The position numbers and the translations under genes are program-made. A stretch of 64,000 nt of DNA from Allodiplogaster sudhausi (Eukaryota > Nematoda > Chromadorea > Rhabditida > Diplogasteridae). The stretch covers positions 4,608,501 to 4,672,500 of the forward strand of contig CALZFC010000020.1 in the NCBI GenBank assembly GCA_945643635.1, in the 5' to 3' direction. Below, one piece after another: positions 5,215 to 41,595 of this stretch (position 1 is the stretch's first letter; each line of letters opens with the position of its first letter). The notes beneath the pieces are model-generated. The model was given only the letters and a program-made list of their open reading frames with translations, was not told the DNA's origin and searched no databases.

Positions 5215-8200
5215 CTAAATTCAAGATAGCGGAGCTATGGGGGGACCTGGTTTCAGTATCTTTGCCATTATCTCCCTTGGAGTCTTCTCTATGTCCTAGC
5301 ATTGTTTAAATCTAATAGGGACTTGTATAAAAGCGCGCAAAACGGTTTGCCCGCGCGCGACTCCGAACCTGGGTCGTTAGAAAATCTGCGTGCGATGAAA
5401 AAGCACCAAAAAGCCACAAAATAATTCATTTCTCGAATATGACTGAATGAATACCGACGAACAACATATCATTCGATAGCTAATTTAACGCTCTATTCGA
5501 ATAAAAATATGCCCCAAAAAGTGTCAGTGATAGCTAAGGTTGAAAAAGTGCCCTGAACCTTCTGACCCCAAAAGTAGATCAAAAACGTTGTTGTATGAAA
5601 AAGTTTTGTATGAGAAATTTGTTCACCTTCGCAAAAGCTACAGAATGATATATAACACGTTGCCATAACTGCAACATCCGAGAAAAAACAGCCGCGGAAA
5701 TGACCTCCCAAAAATTTGACATTTCACGGCCCCCTTAGGGTACTTTCCCGGAAACCCAGCCAAACGGGAGTAGGCTCATTTCAAAGCTCTCCAAAAACTG
5801 TTCAATACTCTGAATGTCCCGTCCTGCTCCAATCCCTAGTCTCCGAGTATTGATTTTTCAAAAGTTCGCTCCTAACGAAATGGGTTCACTACATTATCGA
5901 TTGCTGCCGGAAAACTATTGCCCTGAAGGGGGACGAAACCATGTCAGATGGTGTATTTCGAGGAGTTCTTTCGAATAAGGACAAAAAATCGACATGTTTC
6001 ATATAGCGTTTTCGAGATAGTGAGCAAATACAGAGCAAAAAATGGCCAAAAAACGGGCTAAAACTTTGGCCACGCCCACAGGAAAGACCCTCGGCGAAAT
6101 TAACCCAATTTGTGTCCTATTAATCTTGAAGACTTGCTCTATCAGCCAATATTTTTTTCAGCTTCCCATCTTCTCCGAAACAAAAGATGCAAACGCTCAA
6201 AGTGGCCAACCCAGCACAACCTCGTGCCGAAAAGTTCCAACTTTGGCCGCCGGCGCCGACCCGAAAACCAAAACCCAAAAATCCCAAACCAATACCAAAA
6301 CGTAGCCCCAATATTCATTTTTCATCCTAAAAAAAACCCCACTCGAAAATCTCAATCCCGCCGCCCACCACGCCGCTCCGCGTAAACCCGGTCAATAATG
6401 AACAAGCGTTTCTAAGTACATTCTCTAACTAGCGGAGCTATGGGGGGACCTGGTATCACATTTTCCGCCCATAATCTCCCTTGGAGTCTTGGCTATTTCC
6501 TAGCATAGGTTTACTTTGATTAGGGTTCACACAAAAGCGCGCAAAAGGGTTTGCCCGCGCGCGACTCCGAACCTGGGTCGTTAAGAAAATCTGCGTGCGA
6601 TGAAAATGCACCAAAAAGCCACAAAATAATTCATATCTCGAATATGCCTGAACGAATACAGACGACCAACCTATCATTCGATAGCTAATTTTATGCTCTA
6701 TTCGAATAAAAATATGCGCCAAAAAGTTTCAGTGATAGCTAAGGTCGAAAAAGTGCCCTAAACATTCTGACCACAAAAGTAGATCAAAAACGTCATTGTA
6801 TGAAAACATTTTGTATGACAAAGTTGTTCGTCTTCTCGAGAGCTACAGAATTATATATAAAATGTTGCCATAAGGCCAATCCCCGAGAAAAAACAGCCGC
6901 GGAAATGGACCCCAAAAATTTGAGAATTCACGGCCCTCTCAGGGTACTTTCCCAGAACCCCAGCCAAACGTGAGTAGGCTCATTTCAAAGCTCTCCAAAA
7001 ACTAAACAATATTCTGAATGTCCCGTCCCGCTCCAATCCTAAATCTTCGAGTATTGATTTTTCAAAGGTTTGCTCCTAACAAAATGGGTCCGCCTGTTTT
7101 TGCCCTGTATCTATCGATCTGGGTGGGCTATGGAGCAGATCAATAGATCAGAAGATGCGCCTTGAAAAACTACATCATATATGTTCGAGAATCGAAAATC
7201 GTACCTACAGAATTTTCGATAGTGAGAAAAAACAGAGCAAAAAAGGGCCAAAAAAGGGGGTCAAAATTTGGCCACGCCCCCTGGCCACCCCTGAGGCACT
7301 AACACCAAACCAACCAGGAATCTTAATAATTAAGAGATGGGCTATCGACTCATATTTTTTCATTCCCCAATTCCTCTCCGTTCAAAAGATGCAATCGCTC
7401 AAAGTGGCCAACCCAGCGCAGCCTCGCGCCAAAAAGTTGAAACTTTGACCGCCGGCGCCGACCCCTAAACCAAATCCTAAAAATCCCAAACCCATACCAA
7501 ATCGTAGCCCCAATATTCATTTTCCATCCTAAAAAAAACCCACTCGAAAATCTCAACCCCGCCGCCCACTACGCCGCTCCGCGCAACCCCCGTAAATAAT
7601 CATCAAGCGTTTCTAAGTACATTCTCTAACTAGCGGAGCTATGGGGGGACCTGGTTTCAGTATCTTTGCCCATTCTCTCCCTTGGAGTCTTCGCTATGTC
7701 CTAGCATTTTAATCTTTGCATTAGGGGTGATATAAAAACGCGCAAAAGGGTTTGCCCGCGCGCGACTTCGAACCTGGGTCGTTAGAAAATCTGCGTGCAC
7801 ATAAAATGCACCAAAAAGCCACAAAATAATTCATATCTCGAATATGCCTGAACGAATACTGACCAACAACCTATCATTCGATAGCTAATTTTAGGCTCTA
7901 TCTGAATAAAAATATGCTCCAAAAAGTGTCAGTGATAGCTAAGGTCGAAAAAGTGGTCTAAACATTCTGACCCCAAAAGTAGATCAAAAATGTCGTTGTA
8001 TGAAAAAGTTTTGTATGAGAAAGTTGTTCGCCTTCTCAAAAGCTACCGAATGATATATAACATGTTGCCATAATGCCAATTCCCGAGAAGAAACAGCCGC
8101 AGAAAGAGCCTCCCAAAAATTCGACATTTCACGGCCCCCTCAGGGCACCTTTTCCGAAACCCAGCAAAACAAGAGTAGGCTCATTTGAAAGCCCTCGTAA

Positions 8201-11200
8201 AACTGTTCAATATTCTGAATGTCCCGTCCCGCTGTAATCTCTATTCTCCAAGTATTGATTTTTCAAAGGTTCGCTCCTAACAAAATGTGTTCGCTACATT
8301 ATCGTTCGCTGTCGGAAAACTATTGCCCTGAGGAGGGAGGAAACCATGTCAGATGGTGTATTTCGAGGAGGGCTTTCGAATAAAGACAAAAAATCGACAT
8401 GTTTCATATAGCGTTTTCGAGATAGTGAGCAAATACAGAGCAAAAAAGGGCCAAAAAAGGGGGTCAAATTTTGGTCACGCCCCCTGGCCACGCCTGAGGC
8501 ACTATGACCAAACCAACAAGGAATCTTAATAATTAAGACATGGGCTATCGACACATATTTTTTTCATTCCCCAATTCCTCTCCGTTCAAAAGATACAAAC
8601 GCTCAAAGTGGCCAACATAGCGCAAGCGCGCGCCGAAAAGTTGCAACTTTGACCGCTGGCGCCACCCCCAAACCCAAATCCCAAAAATCCCAAACTAATA
8701 CCAAAACGTAGCCCCAATATTCATTTACCATCCTAAAAAAACCTCACCCCAAAATCTCACTCCCACCGCCCACAACGCCGCTCCGCGCAAACCCGGCCAA
8801 TAAACCACAAGCGTTTCTAAGTACATTCTCTAACTAGCGGAGCTATGGGGGGACCTGGTTTCAGTATCTTTGCCCATTATCTCCCTTGGAGTGTCCTCTA
8901 TGTCCTAGCATTTAGAACTTTGCATTGGGGGTCGAATTAAAACGCGCAAAAGGGTTTGCCCGCGCGCGACTCCGAACCTGGGTCGTTAAGAAAATCTGCG
9001 TGCGACGAAAATGCACCAAAAACAAACAAATTAATTCATATCTCGAATACGCCTGAACGAATACCGACGAACAACCTATCATTCGATAGCTAATTTTAGG
9101 CTCTATTCGAATAAAAATAAGCCCCAAAAAGTGTCAGTGATAGCTAAGGTCGAAAAAGAGGCCTGAACACTCTCGGACCAAAAGTAGATCAAAAACGTCG
9201 TTGTATGGAAAACTTTTGTATGAGACATTTGTTCACCTTCGCAAAAGCTACAGAACGATATATAACGTGTTGCCATAAGGCCAATCCCCGAGAAAAAACA
9301 GCCACGGAAAAGGCCTCCCAAAAATTCGACATTTCACGGCCCCCTCAGGACACCTTTTCCGAAACCCAGCGAAACGTGAGTAGGCTCATTTTAAAGCTCT
9401 CCAAAAACTAAACAATATTCTGAATGTCCCGTCCCGCTCCGATCCTAAATCTCCGAGTATTGATTTTTCAAAGGTTCGCTCCTAACAAAATGGGTTCACT
9501 ACATTATCGAACGCTGCCGGAAAACTATTGCCCTGAGGGGGGAGGAAACCATGTCAGATGGTGTATTTCGAGGAGGGCTTTCGAATAAGGACAAAAAATC
9601 GACATGTTTCATATAGCGTTTTCGAGATAGTGAGCAAATACAGAGCAAAAAAGGGCCAAAAAACCGGCTAAAACTTTGACCACGCCCACAGGAAAGACCC
9701 TCGGGCGGAATTCGCCCAATTTGTGTCCTATTAATCTTGAAGACATTTCCTATCAATCACTATTTTTTCCAGCTTCCCATCTTCTCCGAAACAAAAGATA
9801 GAAACGCTCAAACTCGCCAACCCAGCGCAAGCGCACGCCGAAAGGTTCCAACTTTGGCCGCTGGCGCCACCCCCAAACCCAAATCCCAAAAATCCGAAAC
9901 CCATACCAAATCGTAGCCCCAATATTCATTTACAATCCTAAAAAAACCCCACTCGAAAATCTCAACCCCACCGCCCACCACGCCGCTCCGCGCAAACCCG
10001 GTAAATATTGAACAAGCAATGCTAAGTAGATTCTCTAACTAGCGGAGCTATGGGGGGACCTGGTTTCAGTATCTTTGCCCATTATCTCCCTTGGAGTCTC
10101 CGCTATGTCCTAGCATTGGTTTTGTTTAATTAGGTTTCACACAAAAGCGCGCAAAAGGGTTTGCCCGCGCGCGACTCCGAACCTGGGTCGTTAGAAAATC
10201 TGTGTGTGATGAAAATGTACCAAAAAGCCACAAAATAATTCATATCTCGAATATGCCTGAACCAATACCGATGATCAACCTATCATTCGATAGCTAATTT
10301 TAGGCTCTATTCGAATAAAAATATGCCCCAAAAAGTGTCAGTGATAGCTAAGGTCGAAAAAGTGGCCTGAACATTCTGACCCCAAAAGTAGATCAAAAAC
10401 ATCGAAATATCAAAACCTTTTGTATGACACATTTGTTCGCCATCTCCAGAGCTACATAATGATATATAACATGTAGGCATAATACCAATCCCCGAGAAAA
10501 AACAGCCGCGGAAAGGGCCTCCCAAAAATTTGACATTTCACGGCCCCCTCAGGCCACCTTTTCCGAAACCCAGCCAAACGGGAATAGGCTCATTCCAAAG
10601 CTCTCGTAAAACTGAACAATATTCTGAATGTCCCGTCTCGCTCCAATCCCAAATCTCCGAGTATTGAATTTTGAAAGGTTCGCCCCTAACAAAATGGGTC
10701 CGCCTGTTTTTGCCCCCGATCGATATGACCCAATGTATTTAGCCCGACAATTTATATATCAAAACATGCGCCGTGAAAAACTACATCATATATGTCGGAA
10801 AGAGAAAAAGTTAATTTTGAAAATTCAAGTTAGTGAGCAAAAACAGAGCAAAAAGGGGCCAAAAAAGGGGTCAAAATTTGGCCACGCCCCCTGGTCACCC
10901 CTGAGGCACTATCAACAAACCGACAAGGAATCTTAATAATTAAGACATGGGCTATCGACTCATATTTTTTTCATTCCCCAACTCCTCTCCGTTCAAAAGA
11001 TCCAATAGCTCAAAGTGGCCAACCCAGCGCAAGCGCGCGCCGAAAAGTTGCAACTTTGACCACTGGCGCCACCCCTAAACCCAAAACCCAAAAATCCCAA
11101 ACCAACACCAAAACGTAGCTCCAATATTCATTTACCATCCTAAAAAAACCCCACCCCAAAATCTCACTCCCACCGCCCACGACGCCGCTCCGCGCAAACC

Positions 11201-11241
11201 CCGGCAATAATGGACAAGCGTTTCTAAGTACATTCTCTAAC

Positions 11242-12802
11242 TAGCGGAGCTATGGGGGGACCTGGTTTCAGTATCGCCGCCCATTATCTCCCTTGGAGTC
11301 TCCGCTATGTCCTAGCATTGGTTTTGTTTAATTAGGTTTCACACAAAAGCGCGCAAAAGGGTTTGCCCGCGCGCGACTCCGAACCTGGGTCGTTAGAAAA
11401 TCTGTGTGTGATGAAAATGTACCAAAAAGCCACAAAATAATTCATATCTCGAATATGCATGTATCAAATCCCATGATCTACCTATCATTCGATAGCTAAT
11501 TTTAGGCTCTATCTGAATAAAAATATGCCCCAAAAAGTGTCAGTGATAGCTATGGTCGAAAATGTGGCCTAAACATTCTCGGACCAAAAGTAGATCAAAA
11601 AAGTCAAAATATGAAAACGTTTTGTATGAGACATTTGTTCGCCTTCTCGAGAGCTACAGAATGATATATAACGTGTTGCCATAAGGCCAATCCCCGAGAA
11701 AAAACAGCCACGGAAAAGGCCTCCCAAAAATTCCCGTGCGCGACTCCGAACCTGGGTCGTTAAGAAAATCTGCGTGCGATGAAAATGCACCTAAAAGCCA
11801 CAAAATAATTCATATCTCGAATATGCCTGAACGAATCCTGACGATCACCCTGTCATTCGATAGCTAATTTTAGGCTCTATCTGAATAAAAATATGCCCCA
11901 AAAAGTGTCAGTGATAGCTAAGGTCGAAAAAGTGGCCTAAACCTTCTGACTCCAAAAGTAGATCAAAAATGTCGTTGTATGAAACAGTTTTGTATGAGAA
12001 AGTTGTTCGCCTTCTCAAAAGCTACCGAATGATATATAACACGTTGCCATAATGCCAATTCCCGAGAAGAAACAGCCGCGGAAAGAGCCTCCCAAAAATT
12101 CGACATTTCACGGCCCCCTTTTCCGAAACCCAGCAAAACATGAGTAGGCTCATTTGAAAGCCCTCGTAAAACTGTTCAATATTCTGAATGTCCCGTCCCG
12201 CTGTAATCTCTATTCTCCGAGTATTGATTTTTCAAAGGTTCGCTCCTAACAAAATGTGTTCGCTACATTATCGATCGCTGCCGGAAAACTATTGCCCTGA
12301 GGGGGGAGGAAAGCATGTCAGATGGTGTATTTCGAGGAGTTCTTTCGAATAAGGACAAAAAATCGACATGTTTCATAAGCGTTTTCGAGATAGTGAGCAA
12401 ATACAGAGCAAAAAAGGGCCAAAAAACGGGGTAAAATTTTGGCCACGCCCACAGGAAAGACCCTCAGGCGGAATTCGCCCATTTTGTGTCCTATTAATCT
12501 TGAAGACATGCTCTATCAACTATTATTTTTTCCAGCTTCCCATCTTCTCCCAAACAAAAGATGCAAACGCTCAAAGTGGCCAACCCAGCGCAAGCGCGCG
12601 CCGAAAAGTTGAAACTTTGGCCGCCGGCGCCGACCCCAAAACCAAAACCCAAAAATACCAATCCGATACCAAAACGTAGCCCCAATATTCATTTACCATC
12701 CTAAAAAAAACCCACTCGAAAATCTCAACTCCCCCGCCTGCCACGCCGCTCCGCGCAAACCCCGGCAATAATCGACAAGCGTTTCTAAGTATACTCTCTA
12801 AC
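11242..12802. repeat. Satellite unit with partial internal duplication
   Basis: This unit is about 1561 bp instead of 1204 bp. At about 11728-11735 the text passes from 'CCTCCCAAAAATTC' directly into 'CCGTGCGCGACTCCGAACC', a position that normally lies several hundred bases earlier in the monomer. The segment from the Ala/Gly-type 'CGCGCGACTCCGAACC' block to the 'CTCCCAAAAATTC' block is therefore present twice, as expected from unequal exchange. Confidence 0.85.
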
Positions 12803-15800
12803 TAGCGGAGCTATGGGGGGACCTGGTTTCAGTATCGCCGCCCATTATCTCCCTTGGAGTCTTTTCTGTGTCCTAGCATTTTAATCTTTGCTTTGGGGGT
12901 CATATAAAAGTGCGCAAAAGGGTTTGCCCGCGCGCGACTCCGAACCTGGGTCGTTAGAAAATCTGCGTGCGATGAAAATGCACCAAAAAGCCACAAAATT
13001 AGTCATATCTCGAATATGCCTGAACGAATTCCGACGAACAACCTATCATTCGATAGCTAATTTTAGGCTATATTCGAATAAAAATGTGCCCCAAAAAGTG
13101 TCAGTGATAGCTAAAGTCGAAAAAGTGGCCTGAACATTCTCGGACCAAAAGTAGATCAAAAACGTCATTGTATGAAAACGTTTTGTATGAGACATTTGTT
13201 CGCCTTCTCGAGAGCTACAGAATGATATATAACGTGTTGCCATAACGCCAATCCCCGAGAAAAAACAGCCACGGAAAAGGCCTCCCAAAAATTCGACATT
13301 TCACGGCCCCCTCAGGACACCTTTTCCGAAACCCAGCGAAACGTGAGTAGGCTCATTTTAAAGCTCTCCAAAAACTAAACAATATTCTGAATGTCCCGTC
13401 CCGCTCCGATCCTAAATCTCCGAGTATTGATTTTTCAAAAGTTCGCTCCTAACAAAATGGGTTCACTACATTATCGAACGCTGCCGGAAAACTATTGCCC
13501 TGAGGGGGGAGGAAACCATGTCAGATGGTGTATTTCGAGGAGGGCTTTCGAATAAGGACAAAAAATCGACATGTTTCATATAGCGTTTTCGAGATAGTGA
13601 GCAAATACAGAGCAAAAAAGGGCCAAAAAACGGGGTAAAATTTTGGCCACGCCCACAGGAAAGACCCTCGGGCGGAATTAGCCCAATTTGTGTCCTATTA
13701 ATCTTGAAGACATTCCCTATCAGCCACTATTTTTTCCAGCTTCCCATCTTCTCCGAAACAAAAGATACAATCGCTCAAAATGGCCAACCCAGCGCAAGCG
13801 CGCGCCGAAAAGTTGCAACTTTGACCGCTGGCGCCACCCCCAAACCCAAAACCCAAAAATCCCAAACCAATACCAAAAAGTAGCCCCAATATTCATTTAC
13901 CATCCTAAAAAAACCCCACCCCAAAATCTCAACTCCCCCGCCTGCCACGCCGCTCCGCGCAAACCCCGGCAATAATGGACAAGCGTTTCTAAGTATACTC
14001 TCTAACTAGCGGAGCTATGGGGGGACCTGGTTTCAGTATCGCCGCCCATTATCTCCCTTGGAGTGTGGGCTATGTCCTAGCATTGTTTAAATCTAATAGG
14101 GACTTGGATAAAAGCGCGCAAAAGGGTTTGCTCGCGCGCGACTCCGAACCTGGGTCGTTAGAAAATCTGCGTGCGATGAAAATGTACCAAAAAGCCACAA
14201 AATAATTCATATCTCGAATATTCCTGGGTCAAATGCAAAGCTTGACCTACCATTCGATAGCTAATTTTACGCTCTATACGAATAAAAATATGCCCCAAAA
14301 AGTGTCAGTGATAGCTAAGGTCGAAAAAGTGGCCTAAACATTCTGACCCCAAAAGTAGATCAAAAAACTCAATAAATGAAAATGATTTGTATGACAAAGT
14401 TGTTTGTCTTCTCGAGATCTACAGAATCATATATAACATGTTGCCATAAGGCCAATCCCCGAGAAAAAAACAGCCGCGGAAAGAGCCTCCCAAAAATTCG
14501 ACATTTCACGGCCCCCTCAGGGCACCTTTTCCGAAACCCAGCAAAACAAGAGTAGGCTCATTTGAAAGCCCTCGTAAAACTGTTCACTATTCTGAATGTC
14601 CCGTCCCGCTGCAATCTCTATTCTCCGAGTATTGATTTTTCAAAGGTTCGCTCCTAACAAAATGTGTTCGCTACATTATCGATCGCTGTCGGAAAACTAT
14701 TGCCCTGAGGAGGGAGGAAACCACGTCAGATGGTGTATTTCGAGGAGGGCTTTCGAATAAGGACAAAAAATCGACATGTTTCATATAGCGTTTTCGAGAT
14801 AGTGAGCAAATAAAGAGCAAAAAAGGGCCAAAAAAGGGGGTCAAATTTTGGCCACGCCCACAGGAAAGACCCTCGGGCGGAATTAGCCCAATTTGTGTCC
14901 TATTAATCTTGAAGACATTCCCTATCAGCCACTATTTTTTCCAGCTTCCCATCTTCTCCGAAACAAAAGATACAAACGCTCAAAGTGGCCAACCCAGCGC
15001 AAGAGCGCGCCGAAAAGTTGCAACTTTGGCCGCTGGCGCCACCCCCAAACCCAAATTCCAAAAATCCGAAACCCATACCAAAACGTAGCCCCAATATTCA
15101 TTTACCATCCTAAAAAAAACCCACTCGAAAATCTCAACTCCCCCGCCTGCCACGCCGCTCCGCGCAACCCCGGTGAATAATCATCAAGCGTTTCTAAGTA
15201 TACTCTCTAATAACTAGCGGAGCTATGGGGGGACCTGGTTTCAGTATCTTTGCCCATTTTCTCCCTTGGAGTGGGCGCTATGTCCTAGCATTTTAATATT
15301 TGCATTGGGGGTCATACAAAAGCGCGCAAAAGAGTTTGCCCGCGCGCGACTCCGAACCTGGGTCGTTAAGAAAATCTGCGTGCGATGAAAATTCACCAAA
15401 AAGCCACAAAATAATTCATATCTCAGATATGCCTGAACGAATACAGACGATCAACCTACCATTCGATAGCTAATTTTAGGCTCTATTTGAATAAAAATAT
15501 GCCCCAAAAAGTGTCAGTGATAGCTAAGGTCGAAAAAGTGGCCTGAACCTTCTGACCCCAAAAGTAGATCAAAAATGTCATTATATAAAAACGTTTTGTA
15601 TGAGACATTTGTTCACCAGCTCGAGAGCTACAGAATGATATATAACACGTAGGCATAATACCAATCCCCGACAAAACACAGCCGCGGAAATGGCCTTCCA
15701 GAAATTCCATAATTCACGGCCCCCTCAGGGTACTTTCCCGGAATCCCAGCCAAAAGGGAGTAGGCTCAATTGAAAGTGCTCGTTATACTGAACAATAATC

Positions 15801-18800
15801 TGAATGTCCCATCCAGCTCCAATCCCTAATCTCCGAGTATTGATTTTTCAAAGGTTCGCTCCTAACAAAATGTGTTCGCTACATTATCGATCGCTGTCGG
15901 TAAACTATTGCCCTGAGGGATGAGGAAACCATGTCAGATGGTGTATTTCGAGGAGTTCTTTCGAATAAAGACAAAAAATTGACATGTTTCATATAGCGTT
16001 TTCGAGATAGTGAGCAAATACAGAGCAAAAAAGGGCCAAAAAACGGGGTAAAATTTTGGCCACGCCCACTTCAAAGATCCTCGGGCGGAATTCGCCCAAT
16101 TTGTGTCCTATTAATCTTGAAGACATTCCCTATCAGCCACTATTTTTTCAGCTTCATATCTTCTCCGAAACAAAAGATGCAAACGCTCAAACTCGCCAAC
16201 CCAGCGCAACCTCGCGCCAAAAAGTTGCAACTTTGGCCGCCGGCGCCGACCCCAAAACCAAAACGCAAAAATCCGAAACCCATACCAAATTGTAGCCCCA
16301 ACATTCATTATCCATCTTAAAAAAAACCCCTCCCCAAAATCTCACTCCCACCGCCCGCTACGCCGCTCCGCGCAAACCCGGTGAATAATCATCAAGCAAT
16401 GCTAAGTAGATTCTCTAACTAGCAGAGCTATGGGGGGACCTGGTTTCAGTATCTTTGCCCATTATCTCCCTTGGAGTGCGCGCTATGTCCTAGCCTTTTA
16501 ATCTTTGCATTAGGGGTGATATAAAAACGCGCAAAAGAGTTTGCTCGCGCGCGGATTCGAACCTGGGTCGGTAGAAAATCTGCGTGCGATGAAATTGCAC
16601 CAAAAAGCCACAAAATAATTCATATCTCAAATATTCCTGGATCGATTGCGACGATTGACATACCATTCGATAGCTAATTTTAGGCTCTATTCGAATAAAA
16701 ATATGCCCCAAAAAGTGTCAGTGATAGCTAAGGTCGAAAAAGTGGCCTAAACATTCTGGCCCCAAAAGTAGATCAAAAATGTCGTTATATGAAAACGTTT
16801 TGTATGAGACATTTGTTCGCCTTCTCAAAAGCTACAGAATGACATATAACATGTTGCCATAAGGCCAATCCTCGAGAAAACACAGGCGCGGAAAGGGCCT
16901 CCCAAAATTTTGAGAATTCACGGCCCCCTCAGGGTACTTTCCCGTAATCCCAGCCAAACGGGAGTAGGCTCATTTCAAAGCTCTCGTAAAACTGTTCAAT
17001 AATATGAATGACACAACCCGCTCCGTTCCCGAATCTCCGAGTATTGATTTTTCAAAGGTTCGCTCCTAACAAAATGTGTTCGCTACATTATCGATCGCTG
17101 CCGGAAAACTATTGCCCTGAGGGGGGAGGAAAGCATGTCAGATGGTGTATTTCGAGGAGTTCTTTCGAATAAAGACAAAAAATTGACATGTTTCATATAG
17201 CGTTTTCGAGATAGTGAGCAAATACAGAGCAAAAAAGGGCCAAAAAACGGGGTAAAATTTTGGCCACGCCCACTTCAAAGATCCTCGGGCGGAATTCGCC
17301 CAATTTGTGTCCTATTAATCTTGAAGACATTCCCTATCAGCCACTATTTTTTTCCTCACCCAACTCTTCTCCGCTCAAAAGATACAAACGCTCAAAGTCG
17401 CCAACCCAGCGCGAGCGCGCGCCAAAAAGTTCCAACTTTGACCGCCGGCGCCACCCCCAAAACAAAAACCCAAAAATCCCAAACCAATACCAAAACGTAG
17501 CCCCAATATTCATTTACCAACATAAGAAAACCCCACTCGAAAATCTCAACTCCCCCGCCCACCACGCCACTCCGCGCAAACCCCGGCAATAATGGACAAG
17601 CGTTTCTAAGTATACTCTCTAATAGCGGAGCTATGGGGGGACCTGGTTTCAGTATCTTTGCCCATTATCTCCCTTGGAGTCTCCGCTATGTCCTAGCATT
17701 GTTTAAATCTAATAGGGACTTGTATAAAAGCGCGCAAAAGGGTTTGCCCGCGCGCGACTCCGAACCTGGGTTGTTAGAACATCTGCGTGCGATGAAAATG
17801 TACCAAAAAGCCACAAAATAATTCATATCTCGAATATGCCAGAACGAATACCGTCGAGCAACCTATCATTCGATAGCTAATTTTAGGCTCTATTCGAATA
17901 AAAATATGCGCCAAAAAGTGTCCGTGATAGCTAAGGTCGAAAAAGTGGCCTAAACATTCTGACCCCAAAAGTAGATCAAAAACGCCAAAATATTAAAACG
18001 TTTTGTATGACACATTTGTTCGTCTTCTCGAGAGCTACAGAATCATATATAACATGTTGCGATCACACCAACATCCGAGATAAAACAGCCGCGGAAAGAG
18101 CCTCCCAAAAATTCGACATTTCACGGCCCCCTCAGGGCACCTTTTCCCAAACCCATCAAAACAAGAGTAGGCTCATTTGAAAGCCCTCGTAAAACTGTTC
18201 AATATTCTGAATGTCCCGTCCCGCTGCAATCTCTATTCTCCGAGTATTGATTTTTCAAAGGTTCACTCCTAACAAAATGGGTTCGCTACATTATCGATCG
18301 CTGCCGGAAAACTATTGTCCTGAGGGGGGAGGAAGCCATGTCAGATGGTGTATTTCGAGGAGGGCTTTCGAATAAAGACAAAAAATCGACATGTTTCATA
18401 TAGCGTTTTCGAGATAGTGAGCAAATACAGAGCAAAAAAGGGCCAAAAAACGGGGTAAAATTTTGGCCACGCCCACAGGAAAGACCCTCAGGCGGAATTC
18501 GCCCATTTTGTGTCCTATTAATCTTGAAGACATGCTCTATCAACTACAATTTTTTCCAGCTTCCCATCTTCTCCCAAACAAAAGATACAAACGCTCAAAC
18601 TCGCCAACCCAGCGCAAGCGCGCGCCGAAAAGTTGCAACTTTGGCCACTGGCACCACCCCCAAACCCAAATCCCAAAAATCCGAAACCCATACCATATCG
18701 TAGCCCCAATATTCATTTTCCATCCTAAAAAAAACCCCACTCCAAAATCTCACTCCCACCGCCCACTACGCCGCTCCGCGCAACCCCGGTGAATAATCAT

Positions 18801-21800
18801 CAAGCGTTTCTAAGTATACTCTCTAACTAGCGGAGCTATGGGGGGACCTGTTTTCAGTATCTTTGCCCATTATCTCCCTTGGAGTTTCCGCTATGTCCTA
18901 GCCTTTTAATCTTTGCATTAGGGGTGATATAAAAACGCGCAAAAGAGTTTGCTCGCGCGCGGATTCGAACCTGGGTCGTTAGAAAATCTGCGTACCCTGA
19001 AAATGTAACAAAAAGCCACAAAATAATTCATATCTCGAATATGCCTGGATCGATTGCGACGATTGACATACCATTCGATAGCTAATTTTAGGCTCTATTC
19101 GAATAAAAATATGCCCCAAAAAGTGTCAGTGATAGCTAAGGTCGAAAAAGTGGCCTGAACCTTCTGACCCCAAAAGTAGATCAAAAATGTCGTTATATGA
19201 AAACGTTTTGTATGAGACATTTGTTCGCCTTCTCGAGAGCTACAGAATGATATATAACATGTTGCCATAAGGCCAATCTTCGAGAAAAAACAGGCGCGGA
19301 AAGGGCCTCCCAAAATTTTGAGAATTCACGGCCCCCTCAGGGTACTTTCCCATAATCCCAGCCAAACGGGAGTAGGCTCATTTCAAAGCTCTCGTAAAAC
19401 TGTTCAATGTTATGAATGACACAACCCGCTCCGTTCCCGAATCTCCGAGTATTGATTTTTCAAAGGTTCGCTCCTAACAAAATGTGTTCGCTACATTATC
19501 GATCGCTGTCGGAAAACTATTGCCCTGAGGAGGGAGGAAACCACGTCAGATGGTGTATTTCGAGGAGGGCTTTCGAATAAGGACAAAAAATCGACATGTT
19601 TCATATAGCGTTTTCGAGATAGTGAGCAAATAAAGAGCAAAAAAGGGCCAAAAAAGGGGGTCAAATTTTGGCCACGCCCACAGGAAAGACCCTCGGGCGG
19701 AATTAGCCCAATTTGTGTCCTATTAATCTTGAAGACATTCCCTATCAGCCACTATTTTTTCCAGCTTCCCATCTTCTCCGAAACAAAAGATACAAACGCT
19801 CAAAGTGGCCAACCCAGCGCAAGAGCGCGCCGAAAAGTTGCAACTTTGGCCGCTGGCGCCACCCCCAAACCCAAATTCCAAAAATCCGAAACCCATACCA
19901 AAACGTAGCCCCAATATTCATTTTCCATCGTAAAAAAACCCCACTCGAAAATCTCAACTCCCCCGCCCACCACGCCGCTCCGCGCAACCCCGGTGAATAA
20001 TCATCAAGCGTTTCTAAGTATACTCTCTAACTAGCAGAGCTATGGGGGGACCTGGTTTCAGTATCTTTGTCCATTATCTCCCTTGGAGTGCTGGCTATGT
20101 CCTAGCCTTTTAATCTTTGCATTAGGGGTGATATAAAAACGCGCAAAAGAGTTTGCTCGCGCGCGGATTCGAACCTGGGTCGGTAGAAAATCTGCGTGCG
20201 ATGAAATTGCACCAAAAAGCCACAAAATAATTCATATCTCAAATATGCCTGGATCGATTGCGACGATTGACATACCATTCGATAGCTAATTTTAGGCTCT
20301 ATTCGAATAAAAATATGCCCCAAAAAGTGTCAGTGATAGCTAAGGTCGAAAAAGTGGCCTAAACCTTCTGGCCCCAAAAGTAGATCAAAAAAATCGAAAT
20401 ATCAAAACCGTTTGTATGAGACATTTGTTCGCCTTCTCGAGAGCTACAGAATTATATATAAAATGTTGCCATAAGGCCAATCCCCGAGAAAAAACAGGCG
20501 CGGAAAAGGCCTCCCAAAAATTCGACATTTCACGGCCCCCTCAGGGTACTTTCCCGGAATCCCAGCCAAACGGGAGTAGGCTCATTTGAAAGTGCTCGTT
20601 ATACTGAACAATAATCTGAATGTCCCATCCAGCTCCAATCCCTAATCTACGAGTATTGATTTTTCAAAGTTCGCTCCTAACAAAATGTGTTCGCTACATT
20701 ATCGAACGCTGCCGGAAAACTATTGCCCTGAGGGGGGAGGAAACCATGTCAGATGGTGTATTTCGAGGAGGGCTTTCGAATAAGGACAAAAAATCGACAT
20801 GTTTCATATAGCGTTTTCGAGATAGTGAGCAAATACAGAGCAAAAAAGGGCCAAAAAACGGGGTAAAATTTTGGCCACGCCCACAGGAAATACCCTTGGG
20901 CGGAATTCGCCCAATTTGTGTCCTATTAATCTTGAAGACATGCCCTATCAGTGACTATTTTTTTCAGCTTCCCATCTTCTCCGAAACAAAAGATACAAAC
21001 GCTCAATCTCGCCAACCCAGCGCAAGCGCGCGCCGAAAAGTTGCAACTTTGACCGCTGGCGCCACCCCCAAACCCAAATCCCAAAAATCCCAAACCAATA
21101 CCAAAACGTAGCCCCAATATTCATTTACCATCCTACAAAAACCCCACTCGAAAATCTCAACTCCCCCGCCCACCACGCCGCTCCGCGCAACCCCCGTAAA
21201 TAAACCACAAGCGTTTCTAAGTATACTCTCTAACTAGCGGAGCTATGGGGGGACCTGGTTTCAGTATCTGTGCCCATTATCTCCCTTGGAGTCTCCGCTA
21301 TGTCCTAGCATTTTAATCTTTGCATTGGGGGTCGAATTAAAACGCGCAAAAGGGTTTGCCCGCGCGCGACTCCGAACCTGGGTCGTTAAGAAAATCTGCG
21401 TGCGATGAAAATGCACCAAAAAGCCACAAAATAATTCATATCTCGAATATGCCTGAACGAATCCTGACGATCACCCTATCATTCGATAGCTAATTTTAGG
21501 CTCTATCTGAATAAAAATATGCCCCAAAAAGTGTCAGTGATAGCTAAGGTCGAAAAAGTGGCCTAAACCTTCTGACTCCAAAAGTAGATCAAAAATGTCG
21601 TTGTATGAAACAGTTTTGTATGAGAAAGTTGTTCGCCTTCTCAAAAGCTACCGAATGATATATAACACGTTGCCATAATGCCAATTCCCGAGAAGAAACA
21701 GCCGCGGAAAGAGCCTCCCAAAAATTCGACATTTCACGGCCCCCTCAGGGCACCTTTTCCGAAACCCAGCAAAACATGAGTAGGCTCATTTGAAAGCCCT

Positions 21801-22446
21801 CGTAAAACTGTTCAATATTCTGAATGTCCCGTCCCGCTGTAATCTCTATTCTCCGAGTATTGATTTTTCAAAGGTTCGCTCCTAACAAAATGTGTTCGCT
21901 ACATTATCGATCGCTGCCGGAAAACTATTGCCCTGAGGGGGGAGGAAAGCATGTCAGATGGTGTATTTCGAGGAGTTCTTTCGAATAAGGACAAAAAATC
22001 GACATGTTTCATATAGCGTTTTCGAGATAGTGAGCAAATACAGAGTAAAAAAGGGCCAAAAAACGGGGTAAAATTTTGGCCACGCCCACAGGAAAGACCC
22101 TCGGGCGGAATTAGCCCAATTTGTGTCCTATTAATCTTGAAGACATTCCCTATCAGCCACTATTTTTTCCAGCTTCCCATCTTCTCCGAAACAAAAGATA
22201 CAAACGCTCAAAGTGGCCAACCCAGCGCAAGAGCGCGCCGAAAAGTTGCAACTTTGGCCGCTGGCGCCACCCCCAAACCCAAATTCCAAAAATCCGAAAC
22301 CCATACCAAAACGTAGCCCCAATATTCATTTTCCATCCTAAAAAAACCCCACTCGAAAATCTCAACTCTACCGCCCACCACGCCGCTCCGCGCAACCCCG
22401 GCCTATAATCATCAAGCAATGCTAAGTATACTCTCTAACTAACTAG

Positions 22447-25400
22447 CAGAGCTATGGGGGGACCTGGTTTCAGTATCTTTGTCCATTATCTCCCTTGGAG
22501 TGCTGGCTATGTCCTAGCCTTTTAATCTTTGCATTAGGGGTGATATAAAAACGCGCAAAAGAGTTTGCTCGCGCGCGGATTCGAACCTGGGTCGGTAGAA
22601 AATCTGCGTGCGATGAAATTGCACCAAAAAGCCACAAAATAATTCATATCTCAAATATGCCTGGATCGATTGCGACGATTGACATACCATTCGATAGCTA
22701 ATTTTAGGCTCTATTCGAATAAAAATATGCCCCAAAAAGTGTCAGTGATAGCTAAGGTCGAAAAAGTGGCCTAAACCTTCTGGCCCCAAAAGTAGATCAA
22801 AAAAATCGAAATATCAAAACCGTTTGTATGAGACATTTGTTCGCCTTCTCGAGAGCTACAGAATGATATATAACATGTTGCCATAAGGCCAATCTTCGAG
22901 AAAAAACAGGCGCGGAAAGGGCCTCCCAAAATTAGCCCAATTTGTGTCCTATTAATCTTGAAGACATTCCCTATCAGCCACTATTTTTTCCAGCTTCCCA
23001 TCTTCTCCGAAACAAAAGATACAAACGCTCAAAGTGGCCAACCCAGCGCAAGAGCGCGCCGAAAAGTTGCAACTTTGGCCGCTGGCGCCACCCCCAAACC
23101 CAAATTCCAAAAATCCGAAACCCATACCAAAACGTAGCCCCAATATTCATTTTCCATCGTAAAAAAACCCCACTCGAAAATCTCAACTCCCCCGCCCACC
23201 ACGCCGCTCCGCGCAACCCCCGGCAATAATCATCAAGCGTTTCTAAGTATACTCTCTAACTAGCGGAGCTATGGGGGGACCTGGTTTCAGTATCTTTGCC
23301 CATTATCTCCCTTGGAGTGGGCGCTATGTCCTAGCAATTTAATCTTTGCATTGGGGGTCGAATTAAAACGCGCAAAAGGGTTTGCCCGCGCGCGACTCCG
23401 AACCTGGGTCGTTAAGAAAATCTGCGTGCACATAAAATGCACCAAAAAGCCACAAAATAATTCATATCTCGAAAATGCCTGAACAAATACCGACGAACAA
23501 CCTATCATTCGATAGCTAATTTTAGGCTCTATTCGAATAAAAATATGCGCCAAAAAGTGTCAGTGATAGCTAAGGTCGAAAAAGTGGCCTAAACATTCTC
23601 GGACCAAAAGTAGATCAAAAATGTTGTTATATGAAACTGTTTTGTATGAGACATTTGTTCGCCTTCTCGAGAGCTACAGAATGATATATAACACATTGCC
23701 ATAAGTTCAAAATTTGAGAAAAAACAGCCACAGAAAGGGCCTCCCAAAAATTCGACATTTCACGGCCCCCTCAGGACACCTTTTCCGAAACCCAGCCAAA
23801 CGGGAGTAGGCTCATTTCAAAGCTTTCCAGAAACTAAACAATATTATGAATGTCCCGTCCCGCTCCACCCCCAACTCTCCGAGTATTGATTTTTCAAAGG
23901 TTTGCTCCTAACAAAATGGGTCGGCCGGTTTTTGCCTCATATCTATCGATCTGGGTAGGCTATTGAGCAGATCAATAGATCAGAAGATGCGCCTTGAAAA
24001 ACTACATCATATATGTTCGCAATTCGAAAAACGTACCTACAGAATTTTCGATAGTGAGAAAAAACAGAGCAAAAAAGGGCCAAAAAAGGGGGTCAAAATT
24101 TGGCCACGCCCCCTGGCCGCCCCTGAGGCACTATCACCAAACCAACCAGGAATCTTAATAATTAAGACATGGGCTATCGATTCATATTTTTTTCATTCCC
24201 CAACTCCTCTTCGTTCAAAAGCTGCAAACGCTCAAAGTGGCCAACCCAGCGTAAGCGCGCGCCGAAATGTTGCAACTTTGACCGCTGGCACCACCCGCAA
24301 ACCCAAAACGCAAAAATCCCAAACCAATACCAAAACGTAGCCCAAATATTCATTTTCCATCCTAAAAAAACCCCACCCCCCAAAATCTCACTCCCACCGC
24401 CCACCACACCGCTCCGCGCAACCCCCGGCAATAATCATCAAGCAATGCTAAGTATACACTCTAACTAGCGGAGCTATGGGGGGACCTGCTTTCAGTATCT
24501 TAGCCCATTATCTCCCTTGGAGTCTTCGCTATGTCCTAGCATTGTTTAAATCTAATAGGGACTTGTATAAAAGCGCGCAAAACGGTTTGCCCGCGCGCGA
24601 CTCCGAACCTGGGTCGTTAGAAAATCTGCGTGCGATGAAAAAGCACCAAAAAGCCACAAAATAACTCATTTCTCGAATATGACTGAACGAATACCGACGA
24701 ACAACATATCATTCGATAGCTAATTTTACGCTATATTTGAATAAAAATATGCCCCACAAGTGTCAGTGATAGCTAAGGTCGAAAAAGTGATCTGAACCTT
24801 CTGACCCCAAAAGTAGATCAAAAACGTCGTTGTATGAAAACGTTTTATATGAGACATTTGTTCACCTTCGCAAAAGCTACATAATGATATATAACACGTT
24901 GCCATAACTCCAACATCCGAGAAAAAACAGCCGCGAAAATGACCTCCCAAAAATTTGACATTTCACGGCCCCCTTAGGGTACTTTCCCGGAAACCCAGCC
25001 AAACGGGAGTAGGCTCATTTCAAAGCTCTCCTAAAACTGTACAATATTCTGAATGTCCAATCCCGCTCCGGTCCAAAATCTCCGAGTATTGATTTTTCAA
25101 AGGTTCGCTCCTAACAAAATGTGTTCGCTACATTATCGATCGCTGTCGGAAAACTATTGCCCTGAGGGGGGAGGAAACCATGTCAGATGGTGTATTTCGA
25201 GTTCTTTCGAATAAGGACAAAAAATTGACATGTTTCATATAGCGTTTTCGAGATAGTGAGCAAATACAGAGCAAAAAAGGGCCAAAAAACGGGGTAAAAT
25301 TTTGGCCACGCCCACTTCAAAGATCCTCGGGTGGAATTCGCCCAATTTGTGTCCTATTAATCTTGAAGACATTCCCTATCAGCCACTATTTTTTTCAGCT

Positions 25401-28400
25401 TCATATCTTCTCCGAAACAAAAGATACAAACGCTCAAAGTGGCCAACCCAGCGCAAGAGCGCGCCGAAAAGTTGCAACTTTGGCCGCTGGCGCCACCCCC
25501 AAACCCAAATTCCAAAAATCCGAAACCCATACCAAAACGTAGCCCCAATATTCATTTTCCATCGTAAAAAAACCCCACTCGAAAATCTCAACTCCCCCGC
25601 CCACCACGCCGCTCCGCGCAACCCCGGTGAATAATCATCAAGCGTTTCTAAGTATACTCTCTAACTAGCAGAGCTATGGGGGGACCTGGTTTCAGTATCT
25701 TTGTCCATTATCTCCCTTGGAGTGCTGGCTATGTCCTAGCCTTTTAATCTTTGCATTAGGGGTGATATAAAAACGCGCAAAAGAGTTTGCTCGCGCGCGG
25801 ATTCGAACCTGGGTCGGTAGAAAATCTGCGTGCGATGAAATTGCACCAAAAAGCCACAAAATAATTCATATCTCAAATATGCCTGGATCGATTGCGACGA
25901 TTGACATACCATTCGATAGCTAATTTTAGGCTCTATTCGAATAAAAATATGCCCCAAAAAGTGTCAGTGATAGCTAAGGTCGAAAAAGTGGCCTAAACCT
26001 TCTGGCCCCAAAAGTAGATCAAAAAAATCGAAATATCAAAACCGTTTGTATGAGACATTTGTTCGCCTTCTCGAGAGCTACAGAATGATATATAACATGT
26101 TGCCATAAGGATAATCTTCGAGAAAAAACAGCCGCGAAAATGACCTCCCAAAAATTTGACATTTCACGGCCCCCTTAGGGTACTTTCCCGGAAACCCAGC
26201 CAAACGGGAGTAGGCTCATTTCAAAGCTCTCCTAAAACTGTACAATATTCTGAATGTCCAATCCCGCTCCGGTCCAAAATCTCCGAGTATTGATTTTTCA
26301 AAGGTTCGCTCCTAACAAAATGTGTTCGCTACATTATCGATCGCTGTCGGAAAACTATTGCCCTGAGGGGGAGGAAAGCATGTCAGATGGTGTATTTCGA
26401 GGAGTTCTTTCGAATAAAGACAAAAAATTGACATGTTTCATATAGCGTTTTCGAGATAGTGAGCAAATAAAGAGCAAAAAAGGGCCAAAAAAGGGGGTCA
26501 AATTTTGGCCACGCCCACAGGAAAGACCCTCGGGCGGAATTAGCCCAATTTGTGTCCTATTAATCTTGAAGACATTCCCTATCAGCCACTATTTTTTCCA
26601 GCTTCCCATCTTCTCCGAAACAAAAGATACAAACGCTCAAAGTGGCCAACCCAGCGCAAGAGCGCGCCGAAAAGTTGCAACTTTGGCCGCTGGCGCCACC
26701 CCCAAACCCAAATTCCAAAAATCCGAAACCCATACCAAAACGTAGCCCCAATATTCATTTTCCATCGTAAAAAAACCCCACTCGAAAATCTCAACTCCCC
26801 CGCCCACCACGCCGCTCCGCGCAACCCCGGTGAATAATCATCAAGCGTTTCTAAGTATACTCTCTAACTAGCAGAGCTATGGGGGGACCTGGTTTCAGTA
26901 TCTTTGTCCATTATCTCCCTTGGAGTGCTGGCTATGTCCTAGCCTTTTAATCTTTGCATTAGGGGTGATATAAAAACGCGCAAAAGAGTTTGCTCGCGCG
27001 CGGATTCGAACCTGGGTCGGTAGAAAATCTGCGTGCGATGAAATTGCACCAAAAAGCCACAAAATAATTCATATCTCAAATATGCCTGGATCGATTGCGA
27101 CGATTGACATACCATTCGATAGCTAATTTTAGGCTCTATTCGAATAAAAATATGCCCCAAAAAGTGTCAGTGATAGCTAAGGTCGAAAAAGTGGCCTAAA
27201 CCTTCTGGCCCCAAAAGTAGATCAAAAAAATCGAAATATCAAAACCGTTTGTATGAGACATTTGTTCGCCTTCTCGAGAGCTACAGAATGATATATAACA
27301 TGTTGCCATAAGGCCAATCTTCGAGAAAAAACAGGCGCGGAAAGGGCCTCCCAAAATTAGCCCAATTTGTGTCCTATTAATCTTGAAGACATTCCCTATC
27401 AGCCACTATTTTTTCCAGCTTCCCATCTTCTCCGAAACAAAAGATACAAACGCTCAAAGTGGCCAACCCAGCGCAAGAGCGCGCCGAAAAGTTGCAACTT
27501 TGGCCGCTGGCGCCACCCCCAAACCCAAATTCCAAAAATCCGAAACCCATACCAAAACGTAGCCCCAATATTCATTTTCCATCGTAAAAAAAACCCCACT
27601 CGAAAATCTCAACTCCCCCGCCCACCACGCCGCTCCGCGCAACCCCCGGCAATAATCATCAAGCGTTTCTAAGTATACTCTCTAACTAGCGGAGCTATGG
27701 GGGGACCTGGTTTCAGTATCTTTGCCCATTATCTCCCTTGGAGTGGGCGCTATGTCCTAGCAATTTAATCTTTGCATTGGGGGTCGAATTAAAACGCGCA
27801 AAAGGGTTTGCCCGCGCGCGACTCCGAACCTGGGTCGTTAAGAAAATCTGCGTGCACATAAAATGCACCAAAAAGCCACAAAATAATTCATATCTCGAAA
27901 ATGCCTGAACAAATACCGACGAACAACCTATCATTCGATAGCTAATTTTAGGCTCTATTCGAATAAAAATATGCGCCAAAAAGTGTCAGTGATAGCTAAG
28001 GTCGAAAAAGTGGCCTAAACATTCTCGGACCAAAAGTAGATCAAAAATGTTGTTATATGAAACTGTTTTGTATGAGACATTTGTTCGCCTTCTCGAGAGC
28101 TACAGAATGATATATAACACATTGCCATAAGTTCAAAATTTGAGAAAAAACAGCCACAGAAAGGGCCTCCCAAAAATTCGACATTTCACGGCCCCCTCAG
28201 GACACCTTTTCCGAAACCCAGCCAAACGGGAGTAGGCTCATTTCAAAGCTTTCCAGAAACTAAACAATATTATGAATGTCCCGTCCCGCTCCACCCCCAA
28301 CTCTCCGAGTATTGATTTTTCAAAGGTTTGCTCCTAACAAAATGGGTCGGCCGGTTTTTGCCTCATATCTATCGATCTGGGTAGGCTATTGAGCAGATCA

Positions 28401-30083
28401 ATAGATCAGAAGATGCGCCTTGAAAAACTACATCATATATGTTCGCAATTCGAAAAACGTACCTACAGAATTTTCGATAGTGAGAAAAAACAGAGCAAAA
28501 AAGGGCCAAAAAAGGGGGTCAAAATTTGGCCACGCCCCCTGGCCGCCCCTGAGGCACTATCACCAAACCAACCAGGAATCTTAATAATTAAGACATGGGC
28601 TATCGATTCATATTTTTTTCATTCCCCAACTCCTCTTCGTTCAAAAGCTGCAAACGCTCAAAGTGGCCAACCCAGCGTAAGCGCGCGCCGAAATGTTGCA
28701 ACTTTGACCGCTGGCACCACCCGCAAACCCAAAACGCAAAAATCCCAAACCAATACCAAAACGTAGCCCAAATATTCATTTTCCATCCTAAAAAAACCCC
28801 ACCCCCCAAAATCTCACTCCCACCGCCCACCACACCGCTCCGCGCAACCCCCGGCAATAATCATCAAGCAATGCTAAGTATACACTCTAACTAGCGGAGC
28901 TATGGGGGGACCTGCTTTCAGTATCTTTGCCCATTATCTCCCTTGGAGTCTTCGCTATGTCCTAGCATTGTTTAAATCTAATAGGGACTTGTATAAAAGC
29001 GCGCAAAACGGTTTGCCCGCGCGCGACTCCGAACCTGGGTCGTTAGAAAATCTGCGTGCGATGAAAAAGCACCAAAAAGCCACAAAATAACTCATTTCTC
29101 GAATATGACTGAACGAATACCGACGAACAACATATCATTCGATAGCTAATTTTACGCTATATTTGAATAAAAATATGCCCCACAAGTGTCAGTGATAGCT
29201 AAGGTCGAAAAAGTGATCTGAACCTTCTGACCCCAAAAGTAGATCAAAAACGTCGTTGTATGAAAACGTTTTATATGAGACATTTGTTCACCTTCGCAAA
29301 AGCTACATAATGATATATAACACGTTGCCATAACTCCAACATCCGAGAAAAAACAGCCGCGAAAATGACCTCCCAAAAATTTGACATTTCACGGCCCCCT
29401 TAGGGTACTTTCCCGGAAACCCAGCCAAACGGGAGTAGGCTCATTTCAAAGCTCTCCTAAAACTGTACAATATTCTGAATGTCCAATCCCGCTCCGGTCC
29501 AAAATCTCCGAGTATTGATTTTTCAAAGGTTCGCTCCTAACAAAATGTGTTCGCTACATTATCGATCGCTGTCGGAAAACTATTGCCCTGAGGGGGGAGG
29601 AAACCATGTCAGATGGTGTATTTCGAGTTCTTTCGAATAAGGACAAAAAATTGACATGTTTCATATAGCGTTTTCGAGATAGTGAGCAAATACAGAGCAA
29701 AAAAGGGCCAAAAAACGGGGTAAAATTTTGGCCACGCCCACTTCAAAGATCCTCGGGTGGAATTCGCCCAATTTGTGTCCTATTAATCTTGAAGACATTC
29801 CCTATCAGCCACTATTTTTTTCAGCTTCATATCTTCTCCGAAACAAAAGATGCAAACGCTCAAACTCGCCAACCCAGCGCAACCTCGCGCCAAAAAGTTG
29901 CAACTTTGGCCGCCGGCGCCGACCCCAAAACGAAAATCCGAAACCCATACCAAATTGTAGCCCCAACATTCATTTTCCATCTTAAAAAAACCCCACCCCA
30001 AAATCTCACTCCCACCGCCCGCTACGCCGCTCCGCGGAAACCCGGTCAATAATGAACAAGCGTTTCTAAGTACATTCTCTAAT
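22447..30083. repeat. Higher-order repeat of about 4.43 kb within the array
   Basis: The block starting at 22447 (an 817-bp truncated unit, then a type B unit at 23263, then a type A unit at 24467) reappears near-identically 4.42-4.43 kb later (26871, 27689, 28894). Corresponding landmarks are offset by 4425-4427 bp. The same deletion junction ('CTCCCAAAATTAGCCCAATT' at about 22930 and 27357) is in both copies, so the deletion preceded the duplication. The second copy changes to a different unit variant at about 29835, where the array ends. Confidence 0.85.
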
Positions 30084-30174
30084 CTTGCGTTACTGTTCAA
30101 ATTAAATAGTATATTATAACATTCTGGATTACCGTAGTTAAATTCGAACTTAATATAACATTCAAATAGCCAAC

Positions 30175-30312
30175 CGATGGCCCGGGTTCCTTCTCCTGGT
30201 CAATCCCATTCTCCACTTCTTCGAGATTCTCCTTCTGCCTTTCTTCTTTGACGAGTCTGTACTCTTCAGCCATTTCAGATGACTCTAGACCAGTCAGCTG
30301 ATTATGTTCCAT
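30175..30312 (-). CDS. Candidate first coding exon of NF-YB
   Basis: From an ATG at 30312-30310 the minus strand is open and strongly acidic/charged ('EEYRLVKEERQKENLEEVEN', then 'EKEPGPS'). Three possible donors (TCG|GTTGGC at 30175, AAT|GTTATA, or ACG|GTAATC at 30133) are all phase 0 and would join in frame to the phase-0 exon at 5214. The adenosine kinase gene next door also uses a GTTGGA donor. No known domain is visible, as expected for the variable NF-YB N-terminus. It could instead be an unrelated short ORF. Confidence 0.4.
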
Positions 30313-30867: not shown

Positions 30868-33333
<2,466 letters not shown>

Positions 33334-34959: not shown

Positions 34960-35099
34960 TCCTTCTTTCTGCTTTCTTATCGTCACTCCCCTTTCTTTCT
35001 TCCTTGCTTTCTCGCTCCCTTATTCTCTCTAGCTTTATGTCTCTCTCTCTCTCTCTTTCTTTCTACCTCTCCCTCTCTTCTCTCACTCTATTCGTCTTC

Positions 35100-35146
<47 letters not shown>

Positions 35147-36330
35147 GGCATTTTTTAAGGGCTAGCACAGAGAAGAAAGCTGGCAGCAGAAGCAGTCCCT
35201 TCTCTGTCTCTCTGCAATCAAGCACGGCAACTTTTGCCACTCGCTCTGCTTTCATGCCTCTATGAATATTTATGTCCCTATGGATGTACATATCCGTCCA
35301 CGTGTAATTGCACTGAGTCTGTTCTAGAGGAGGTTGAATAGATGCATATGTGTATGTACGAACACTGGCGTGTTCTAGGCTGCGATGATGGATGGTGAAG
35401 ATGCCTGAGTCAGAGAGAGAGTGAGAGAGAGAGAAAGAGAGAGAGAGAGCTAGAGGGAGAGATGGAGAGAGAGGAGATAGAGTGAGAGAGAGATGAGATA
35501 GAGAGAGAGAGGGAGGGAGAGAGAGTTAGGGGGAGAGAAGGAGAGAGAGAGGAGATAGAGAGAGAGGGAGAGAGAAAGAGTCTAAGGCGACGGCGTGAAG
35601 AAACTTTCCGGAAAGAGTGGGAGACGTGTGGCATCACACCCTTGTCTTCATCTTTTTTCACTCAGATTTACAGCTGACTTCTCATATTGCGACAAGAAAA
35701 AAACATGAAAGAAAGGGAAGTGCAAAATATTCGGAAAAGTGAGAAATTGAGAGAGCCGGAACGAAGGGCAGTTCGTCTCTCTCTCTCTCTCTCTCTCTCA
35801 CCCTCTATCTCCCTCTCTTTCTTCTAACTATTTTATCTCTCCCCCTCTTTCTCTCTATGTCTCTCTCTCTCTCTCTCTTCATGAGGTTCCTTCCTGTGAA
35901 GCCTTCACTCATCTTCACCCCTCCCTCCTGGAAAAAGGAGAAGAAGTGGTGGAAGAGGGGAGAAGTTCATGCCGGTCCAGTCGACTCCCTCCTCCCATTT
36001 CTACTTTTATGTACAGCTCTAAAGTTGCTCTCCTGCAGACACTGACACTGACGTGAGTAGAAGATGGATGATGAGGGACGGACGAAAAAGGAGCTAAAGA
36101 GAGAGGAGAGAGAAAGAGAAAGAGAGTAGGAGAAAGAGAAAGAGAAAGAGAAGGAACGGGTAGTAGATTGATAGGGGGAGAGATCGGAGTTGGCGTGGGT
36201 GATGAGATAACGATGAAGAGAGAAAAAGTGAGAGACACAGAGAGAGAGAGAGGGTGAGAGAGAGAGAAGGAGAGAGAGAAAGCGGATGCAGTGTGCTGAG
36301 GTAGTCTACATTGGTCGCAGATGACGACAA
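34960..36330. repeat. Microsatellite-rich stretch
   Basis: CT-rich on the plus strand at 34975-35150 and 35778-35880; GA-rich on the plus strand at 35411-35580 and 36090-36285. Short unique islands between them show no coding exon that I can support. Ser/Leu-rich and Arg/Glu-rich frames are repeat artefacts. Confidence 0.8.

Positions 36331-37505: not shown

Positions 37506-37553
<48 letters not shown>

Positions 37554-37801: not shown

Positions 37802-37847
<46 letters not shown>

Positions 37848-40667: not shown

Positions 40668-40719
<52 letters not shown>

Positions 40720-41193: not shown

Positions 41194-41224
<31 letters not shown>

Positions 41225-41545: not shown

Positions 41546-41595
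<50 letters not shown>

Follow-up and report, generated by a model that had tools for sequence, protein, structure and literature searches.

The NF-YB gene of the nematode Allodiplogaster sudhausi studied here appears to carry in its first intron a 25-kb tandem array, likely formed by a Helitron-like, non-autonomous rolling-circle element that entered an intron of about 110 bp as a concatemer, at a step from A to T (A^T). The array lies in a 64,000-bp stretch of DNA, hereafter the window (positions 4,608,501 to 4,672,500 of contig CALZFC010000020.1, here C20), in an assembly of 351.8 Mb in 382 contigs (GCA_945643635.1). Positions refer to the window unless another contig is named, and a slash in a motif marks an edge or a junction. 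The evidence comes from a second copy of the gene, in which the site is empty, and from the way the same ends behave at other sites of the genome.

The array and its empty site

The satellite array described in the sequence-only reading is real. It spans 24,856 bp and comprises 21 head-to-tail units of about 1.2 kb, all anchored units being in one orientation. Seventeen of the 20 spacings between units fall within 1200-1209 bp, the other three being 1561, 817, and 818 bp. The array begins and stops at exact unit borders at both ends, and the unit consensus has no further match in the rest of the window at E 1e-3. The distances previously given for the edges were also accurate, the left edge lying 12 bp from exon 2 and the right edge 50 and 92 bp from the two donors that had been named. 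Comparison with Helitron ends sets the orientation of the units, which is the direction of NF-YB. Pairwise identity among units ranges from 77 to 100%, two unit types are interleaved, and the junctions between units vary (CTCTAA/TAGC, CTCTAAC/TAGC, and longer forms). A 2,265-bp piece occurs twice, which is due either to a recent duplication within the array or to an assembly fault.

A search of the genome with the PF00808 profile revealed a second NF-YB exon on contig C347. The flanks of the array align to this contig over about 15 kb, the main pieces being 85-93% identical. In C347, bases 5226 and 30083 are adjacent, no base is lost or duplicated, and the empty site reads CAAGATCTTG uninterrupted. 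Hence, the array was inserted at an A^T step and no loss or duplication is visible, with the proviso that a target duplication of AT would look identical here, because the array starts with T and ends with A. With its unit-exact ends and its empty site, the array was rejected as an ordinary satellite formed in place. The sequence-only reading pictured a satellite-filled intron and overlooked these fixed ends and the empty site, which are the mark of a mobile element. A recent whole-genome duplication has been described in A. sudhausi (PMC12325724), and our guess is that two copies of the region at about 88% identity are compatible with this event. The profile gave two other matches that score above the NF-YB exons, L001 (C87:185924) and L002 (C246:1071641), which are probably other histone-fold genes present in two copies.

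Table 1. Positions in the window of the array, the NF-YB gene, and the neighboring kinase gene
Feature	Position	Strand	Remarks
Array, 21 units	5227..30082	+	TAGCGG...CTCTAA(C) on the + strand; Helitron orientation TTAGAG...CCGCTAG on the - strand
Left edge	5226..5227		...TTCAAGA/TAGCGG; 5226 adjoins 30083 in the second gene copy
Right edge	30082..30083		...CTCTAA/TCTTGCG; 30083 adjoins 5226 in the second gene copy
Internal repeat	23161..25425	+	2,265-bp piece, recurs 4,426 bp onward at 99.96% identity
Probable NF-YB exon 1	30175..30312	-	46 codons, ATG start, phase 0, donor GTTGGC
Inferred NF-YB intron 1	5215..30174	-	24,960 bp, 99.6% array; 112 bp in the C347 copy
NF-YB exon 2	5145..5214	-	Pfam and PDB matches
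NF-YB exons 3-8	4856-4992, 4563-4660, 4400-4448, 3860-3988, 3548-3653, 3365-3432	-	
Adenosine kinase gene	30868..33333	-	Just upstream of NF-YB, same strand; stop at 30868

Insertion rule and rolling-circle ends

We searched the genome for other right edges with a pattern made of the right end of the unit and A, G, or T, followed by a base other than A. Among the 34 inspected matches (of 35), 8 are internal junctions and 26 are real edges, corresponding to 25 distinct flanks. All 25 begin with T, including one that is an inverted unit and one that starts another hairpin element. The right end followed by C gave four matches, at least one of them internal. Copies of the flanks lacking the array were sought with 18 and with 11 flanks, 40 candidates being scored in each search, and repeat-rich flanks swamped the search with 18. 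At 10 of the 12 sites with such a copy (window included), A precedes the T; one of these 10 is a dispersed repeat and one is a duplicate on the same contig. The left-edge pattern excluded C before TAGC and thus missed edges such as that of C246. It gave 35 matches, with A (30), T (4), or G (1) before TAGC. The 31 inspected are mostly internal junctions without a C, together with four clear left edges (window, C35, C280, and C288), all after A, and two odd cases (L057 and L104). A palindromic target, as CAAGATCTTG might suggest, was rejected and taken as chance, since TTATTCGA^TTTATAG and AGATTGTA^TTGGG are not palindromic.

Units also occur alone. The one at C246:655352-656549, 85% identical to the consensus, lies between ...CGAAA and TGCGG... 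and starts with C, its end in the reverse orientation being CCGCTAG/T. This copy (A/CTAG...CTAA/T) leaves room for a target duplication of at most 1 bp. The element at C248:1014804-1017277 has a strong hairpin, TAGCGTGCCTTCGGCACGCTA, at its start, pieces of satellite inside, and CTCTAA/T at its end. With two further bases, this hairpin occurs 111 times in the genome, and its backward control 0 times. On C81, a single insertion of about 11.5 kb is bounded by the hairpin end and, opposite, by the satellite end. Outside its left edge, 29 of 33 bases agree with the second, empty copy. Of four probes, three fell within the insertion and all three met satellite; the remaining one fell outside. Hence, the hairpin-CTAG end is also found on satellite-bearing copies, those of C248 and C81.

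The genome encodes many Helitron Rep domains. The PF14214 profile has 120 matches, of which 114 are over the cut-off and 23 are in open frames above 3,000 aa; it has none in 14 control genomes. Counting up to 10 kb, 7 hairpins follow a Rep match downstream in the predicted orientation, for 0.17 expected, and none occurs in any of the three other arrangements. Within 20 kb, the four arrangements count 10, 1, 2, and 0. These figures use all 120 Rep matches and 100 of the 111 hairpins, and an earlier count with 58 rows agreed. We inspected 20 hairpin ends chosen by hand (8 near Rep, 6 near arrays, and 6 others) and found CTAG/T, in the orientation of the element, at 19 of them; in the twentieth, on C81, it is six bases further out. 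The position downstream of Rep and the CTAG/T ends argue that this hairpin most likely forms the 3' end of the Helitrons of this genome. Separately, 13 Rep matches (e.g., C85:10690, C107:80825, C252:16448, and C253:16232) have the same score, and 11 of these belong to 3,304-aa open frames; several of the 13 lie close to either end of a contig, a hint of recent amplification. Matches to the satellite patterns and to Rep share neighborhoods at C1:7.30-7.67 Mb and on C202, C280, and C74, an observation for which no statistic was made.

Canonical Helitrons insert between A and T without target duplication, start with 5' TC, end with 3' CTRR, and have a short hairpin near the 3' end. The unit resembles them in inserting between A and T, with no target duplication needed at the window site. 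Its 3' end is CTAG in the lone unit of C246 but CTA/T at the edge of the window array. Since the 5' TC is missing, the unit is kept out of the canonical Helitrons, even if it works like one. Helentrons and DINE-1-like elements (HINE) are described with subterminal inverted repeats of 12-15 bp and a T-rich (TT) target (PMC4067079). The unit differs from them in its A^T target, and its subterminal match spans only 7 bp, a score that 26% of shuffles attain. The terminal inverted repeats of a cut-and-paste DNA transposon were not detected either, the best match between the two 60-base ends being 7 bp, not above shuffles.

Several observations weigh against the assignment to a Helitron-like element inserted at A^T. 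The 5' end of the unit is TT (TTAGAG; on the other strand TAGC or CTAGC), the 3' edge in the window reads CTA/T, one G short of CTAG, and the hairpin of the unit is weak, with a 4-bp stem at the very end compared with 9 bp in the Rep-linked ends. The link to Rep runs through the hairpin-CTAG end and not through the TTAGAG end of the unit. As for the target, the second copy of the C81 site has G before T. For C35, the second copy is missing about 15 bp at this point, and in a distant repeat copy the T is preceded by G. The left flanks of the C81 and C35 arrays themselves both end in A. Finally, of the 12 sites with an empty copy, only the window, C35, and C81 have a located left edge, and the comparison with a second copy extends to both edges for these three alone.

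The NF-YB gene and its surroundings

The gene had been named NF-YB from the sequence alone, and database searches agree, with the Pfam family CBFD_NFYB_HMF at E 2.1e-23 and NF-YB chains in PDB at about 2e-37. Further 3' exons are likely beyond exon 8. Exon 2 has an in-frame TAG right at its acceptor and no in-frame ATG, and therefore requires an upstream exon. Between the adenosine kinase gene and the array there are 24 candidates running from an ATG to a phase-0 GT, of which the second gene copy retains 9. The longest retained candidate is the open reading frame from 30312 that the sequence-only reading had put forward as first exon, and which is indeed present. Over its 46 codons, it is 96.4% identical to the second copy without gaps, compared with 78.6% (5 gap columns) in the 42 bases after the donor and 91.1% (40 gap columns) in the 555 bases upstream. 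Of the two donors considered for it, 30175 keeps its phase in C347, whereas 30133 was rejected, since two gaps in C347 between the donors, of 1 and 4 bases, destroy its phase. This exon also has weak points. Each of the four codon changes between copies is non-synonymous; the codon score of the exon is modest, being equalled or exceeded in 5.4% of 908 stop-free control windows; and among 7 candidates no homolog reached E 10 or better. A first exon within the satellite was rejected in a scan for GTRAGT and GTRAGW donors on the sense strand, the former being absent and the latter giving two candidates of 22 codons.

The comparison of the two gene copies covers exons 1-4, exons 5-8 being left out on account of an insertion in C347. 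In exons 2-4, 12 of the 14 changes counted from the alignment are synonymous and 2 are non-synonymous, so that both copies look constrained over this part. The insertion in C347 (930003-931321, opposite window 4492-4497) is about 1.3 kb long and lies in intron 4 of that copy, the window copy being without it; by eye, its halves look like long inverted repeats of the foldback type.

The adenosine kinase gene has its closest match in Pristionchus fissidentatus (71%). A protein model, P0143, fuses an adenosine kinase and, after it, an NF-YB. In Necator, Ostertagia, Auanema, and Thelazia the two genes were found on contigs that agree in length, in each case presumably the same contig. The same order is thus suggested in several other nematodes, possibly reflecting an operon. 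The placement of the array in intron 1 of NF-YB is supported by the short empty intron of the second copy, by the lack of a start codon on the side of exon 2, and by this order of kinase and NF-YB elsewhere; the splice from 30175 to 5214, proposed before, is one that we infer.

Elsewhere in the window, (GA)n/(CT)n tracts are very abundant in introns and spacers (1438-1599, 2551-2677, and 35040-50317). By eye, the GC-rich tandem repeats of the glycine/proline type at 51625-52435 probably belong to a collagen or similar gene, and an AT-rich stretch at 53-56 kb adjoins them.

Origin of the array and comparison with known systems

We propose that the unit is a non-autonomous rolling-circle element whose weak 3' hairpin would terminate replication poorly, so that replication would run through several units and the resulting concatemers would insert. 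One such insertion would have hit the first intron of NF-YB in one of its two copies. The intron would still be spliced out and the gene would still work, and the near-identical duplication inside the array would have arisen later or been added by the assembly. Several diverged units probably arrived together, as judged from sequence divergence, because units differ by up to 23%, compared with about 7-15% for the flanks, and the insertion should postdate the split of the gene copies. This argument would fail if mutation or conversion is faster in satellite units than in the flanks, or if C347 lost the array. The stronger version, in which some 20 already diverged units (25 kb) moved into the intron in one rolling-circle step, the weak terminator hairpins being read through, is one we hold only tentatively, at somewhat less than even chances.

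The array could instead derive from one unit inserted at A^T, followed by growth in place through unequal exchange or replication slippage. Single-unit insertions do exist, and the internal duplication of 2,265 bp indicates that the length of the array has changed from inside. However, a one-unit origin should give less spread than is seen, with units down to 77% identity while the gene copies are at about 85-93%, and it sits poorly with two interleaved unit types. We regard this scenario as unlikely, with the caveat that the argument from divergence assumes that C347 never had the array, so that the copies split before the insertion. Serial arrival is less probable still. Each CTCTAA/T insertion leaves a fresh A^T at the right end for the next head-to-tail unit, the right edge itself being such a step, and the junctions vary in form; yet about 20 insertions into one dinucleotide would be required, and the 2-kb blocks shared within the array need another process. 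Some other route, such as the uptake of circular or linear satellite DNA during repair, with coincidental likeness to Helitrons, would fit the site, where no duplication has to be assumed, as well as the missing 5' TC and the lack of a significant terminal inverted repeat. We give it very little credence, since it would not lead to identical ends and an identical flanking base across 25 distinct flanks, nor to an end common to Rep-linked hairpin elements. Least probable of all is a misjoin that put the array in the gene: the sequence comes from a single assembly, and the near-perfect internal duplication could be a fault, but a misjoin would not give two base-exact edges obeying the rule of other arrays.

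It has long been asked how satellite arrays come to occupy new loci, and here the states before and after are found for one locus in one genome. If the whole array did move in a single step, transposition would be a direct route for seeding satellite arrays inside genes, and the sister copy would preserve the site as it was before. Because the ends obey a base-exact rule at many sites and a candidate enzyme family is present, the insertion step is open to experiment. The matched NF-YB pair, with inferred first introns of 112 bp and 25 kb, offers a gauge of the effect that an intronic array may have on a regulator, such as the change in transcription time or chromatin suggested in the sequence-only reading. 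In a limited literature search, we did not find in print this combination of an intron of a nematode gene, element ends on both sides of the array, and an empty site in the same genome.

The closest parallels each share part of this picture. In plants, tandem Helitron arrays of several to several hundred repeats are attributed to rolling-circle amplification (Xiong et al. 2016, as described in PMC12628747), and both there and here the arrays are head-to-tail and made of rolling-circle elements. According to that description, the plant arrays consist of truncated elements, many arrays having several 5' ends but only one 3' end, whereas the nematode units keep both ends, and the block lies in a gene intron with an empty site in the same genome. 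Satellite-like repeats are also reported inside Helitrons or Helentrons (PMC12628747, PMC4067079, PMC7492417), and there, too, tandem repeats spread with rolling-circle elements and no target-site modification occurs. In those accounts the repeats are internal to the element, and the Helentron derivatives of mites prefer T-rich sites; here, the repeat unit itself bears the element ends, and the target is A^T. Finally, genes of the Drosophila Y chromosome are described with giant introns filled with satellite (PMC6508621, PMC11207136). As in NF-YB, tandem repeats fill the intron of a gene that must be spliced, but these introns are on the megabase scale and on a Y chromosome, whereas the NF-YB array measures 25 kb and has an empty sister copy.

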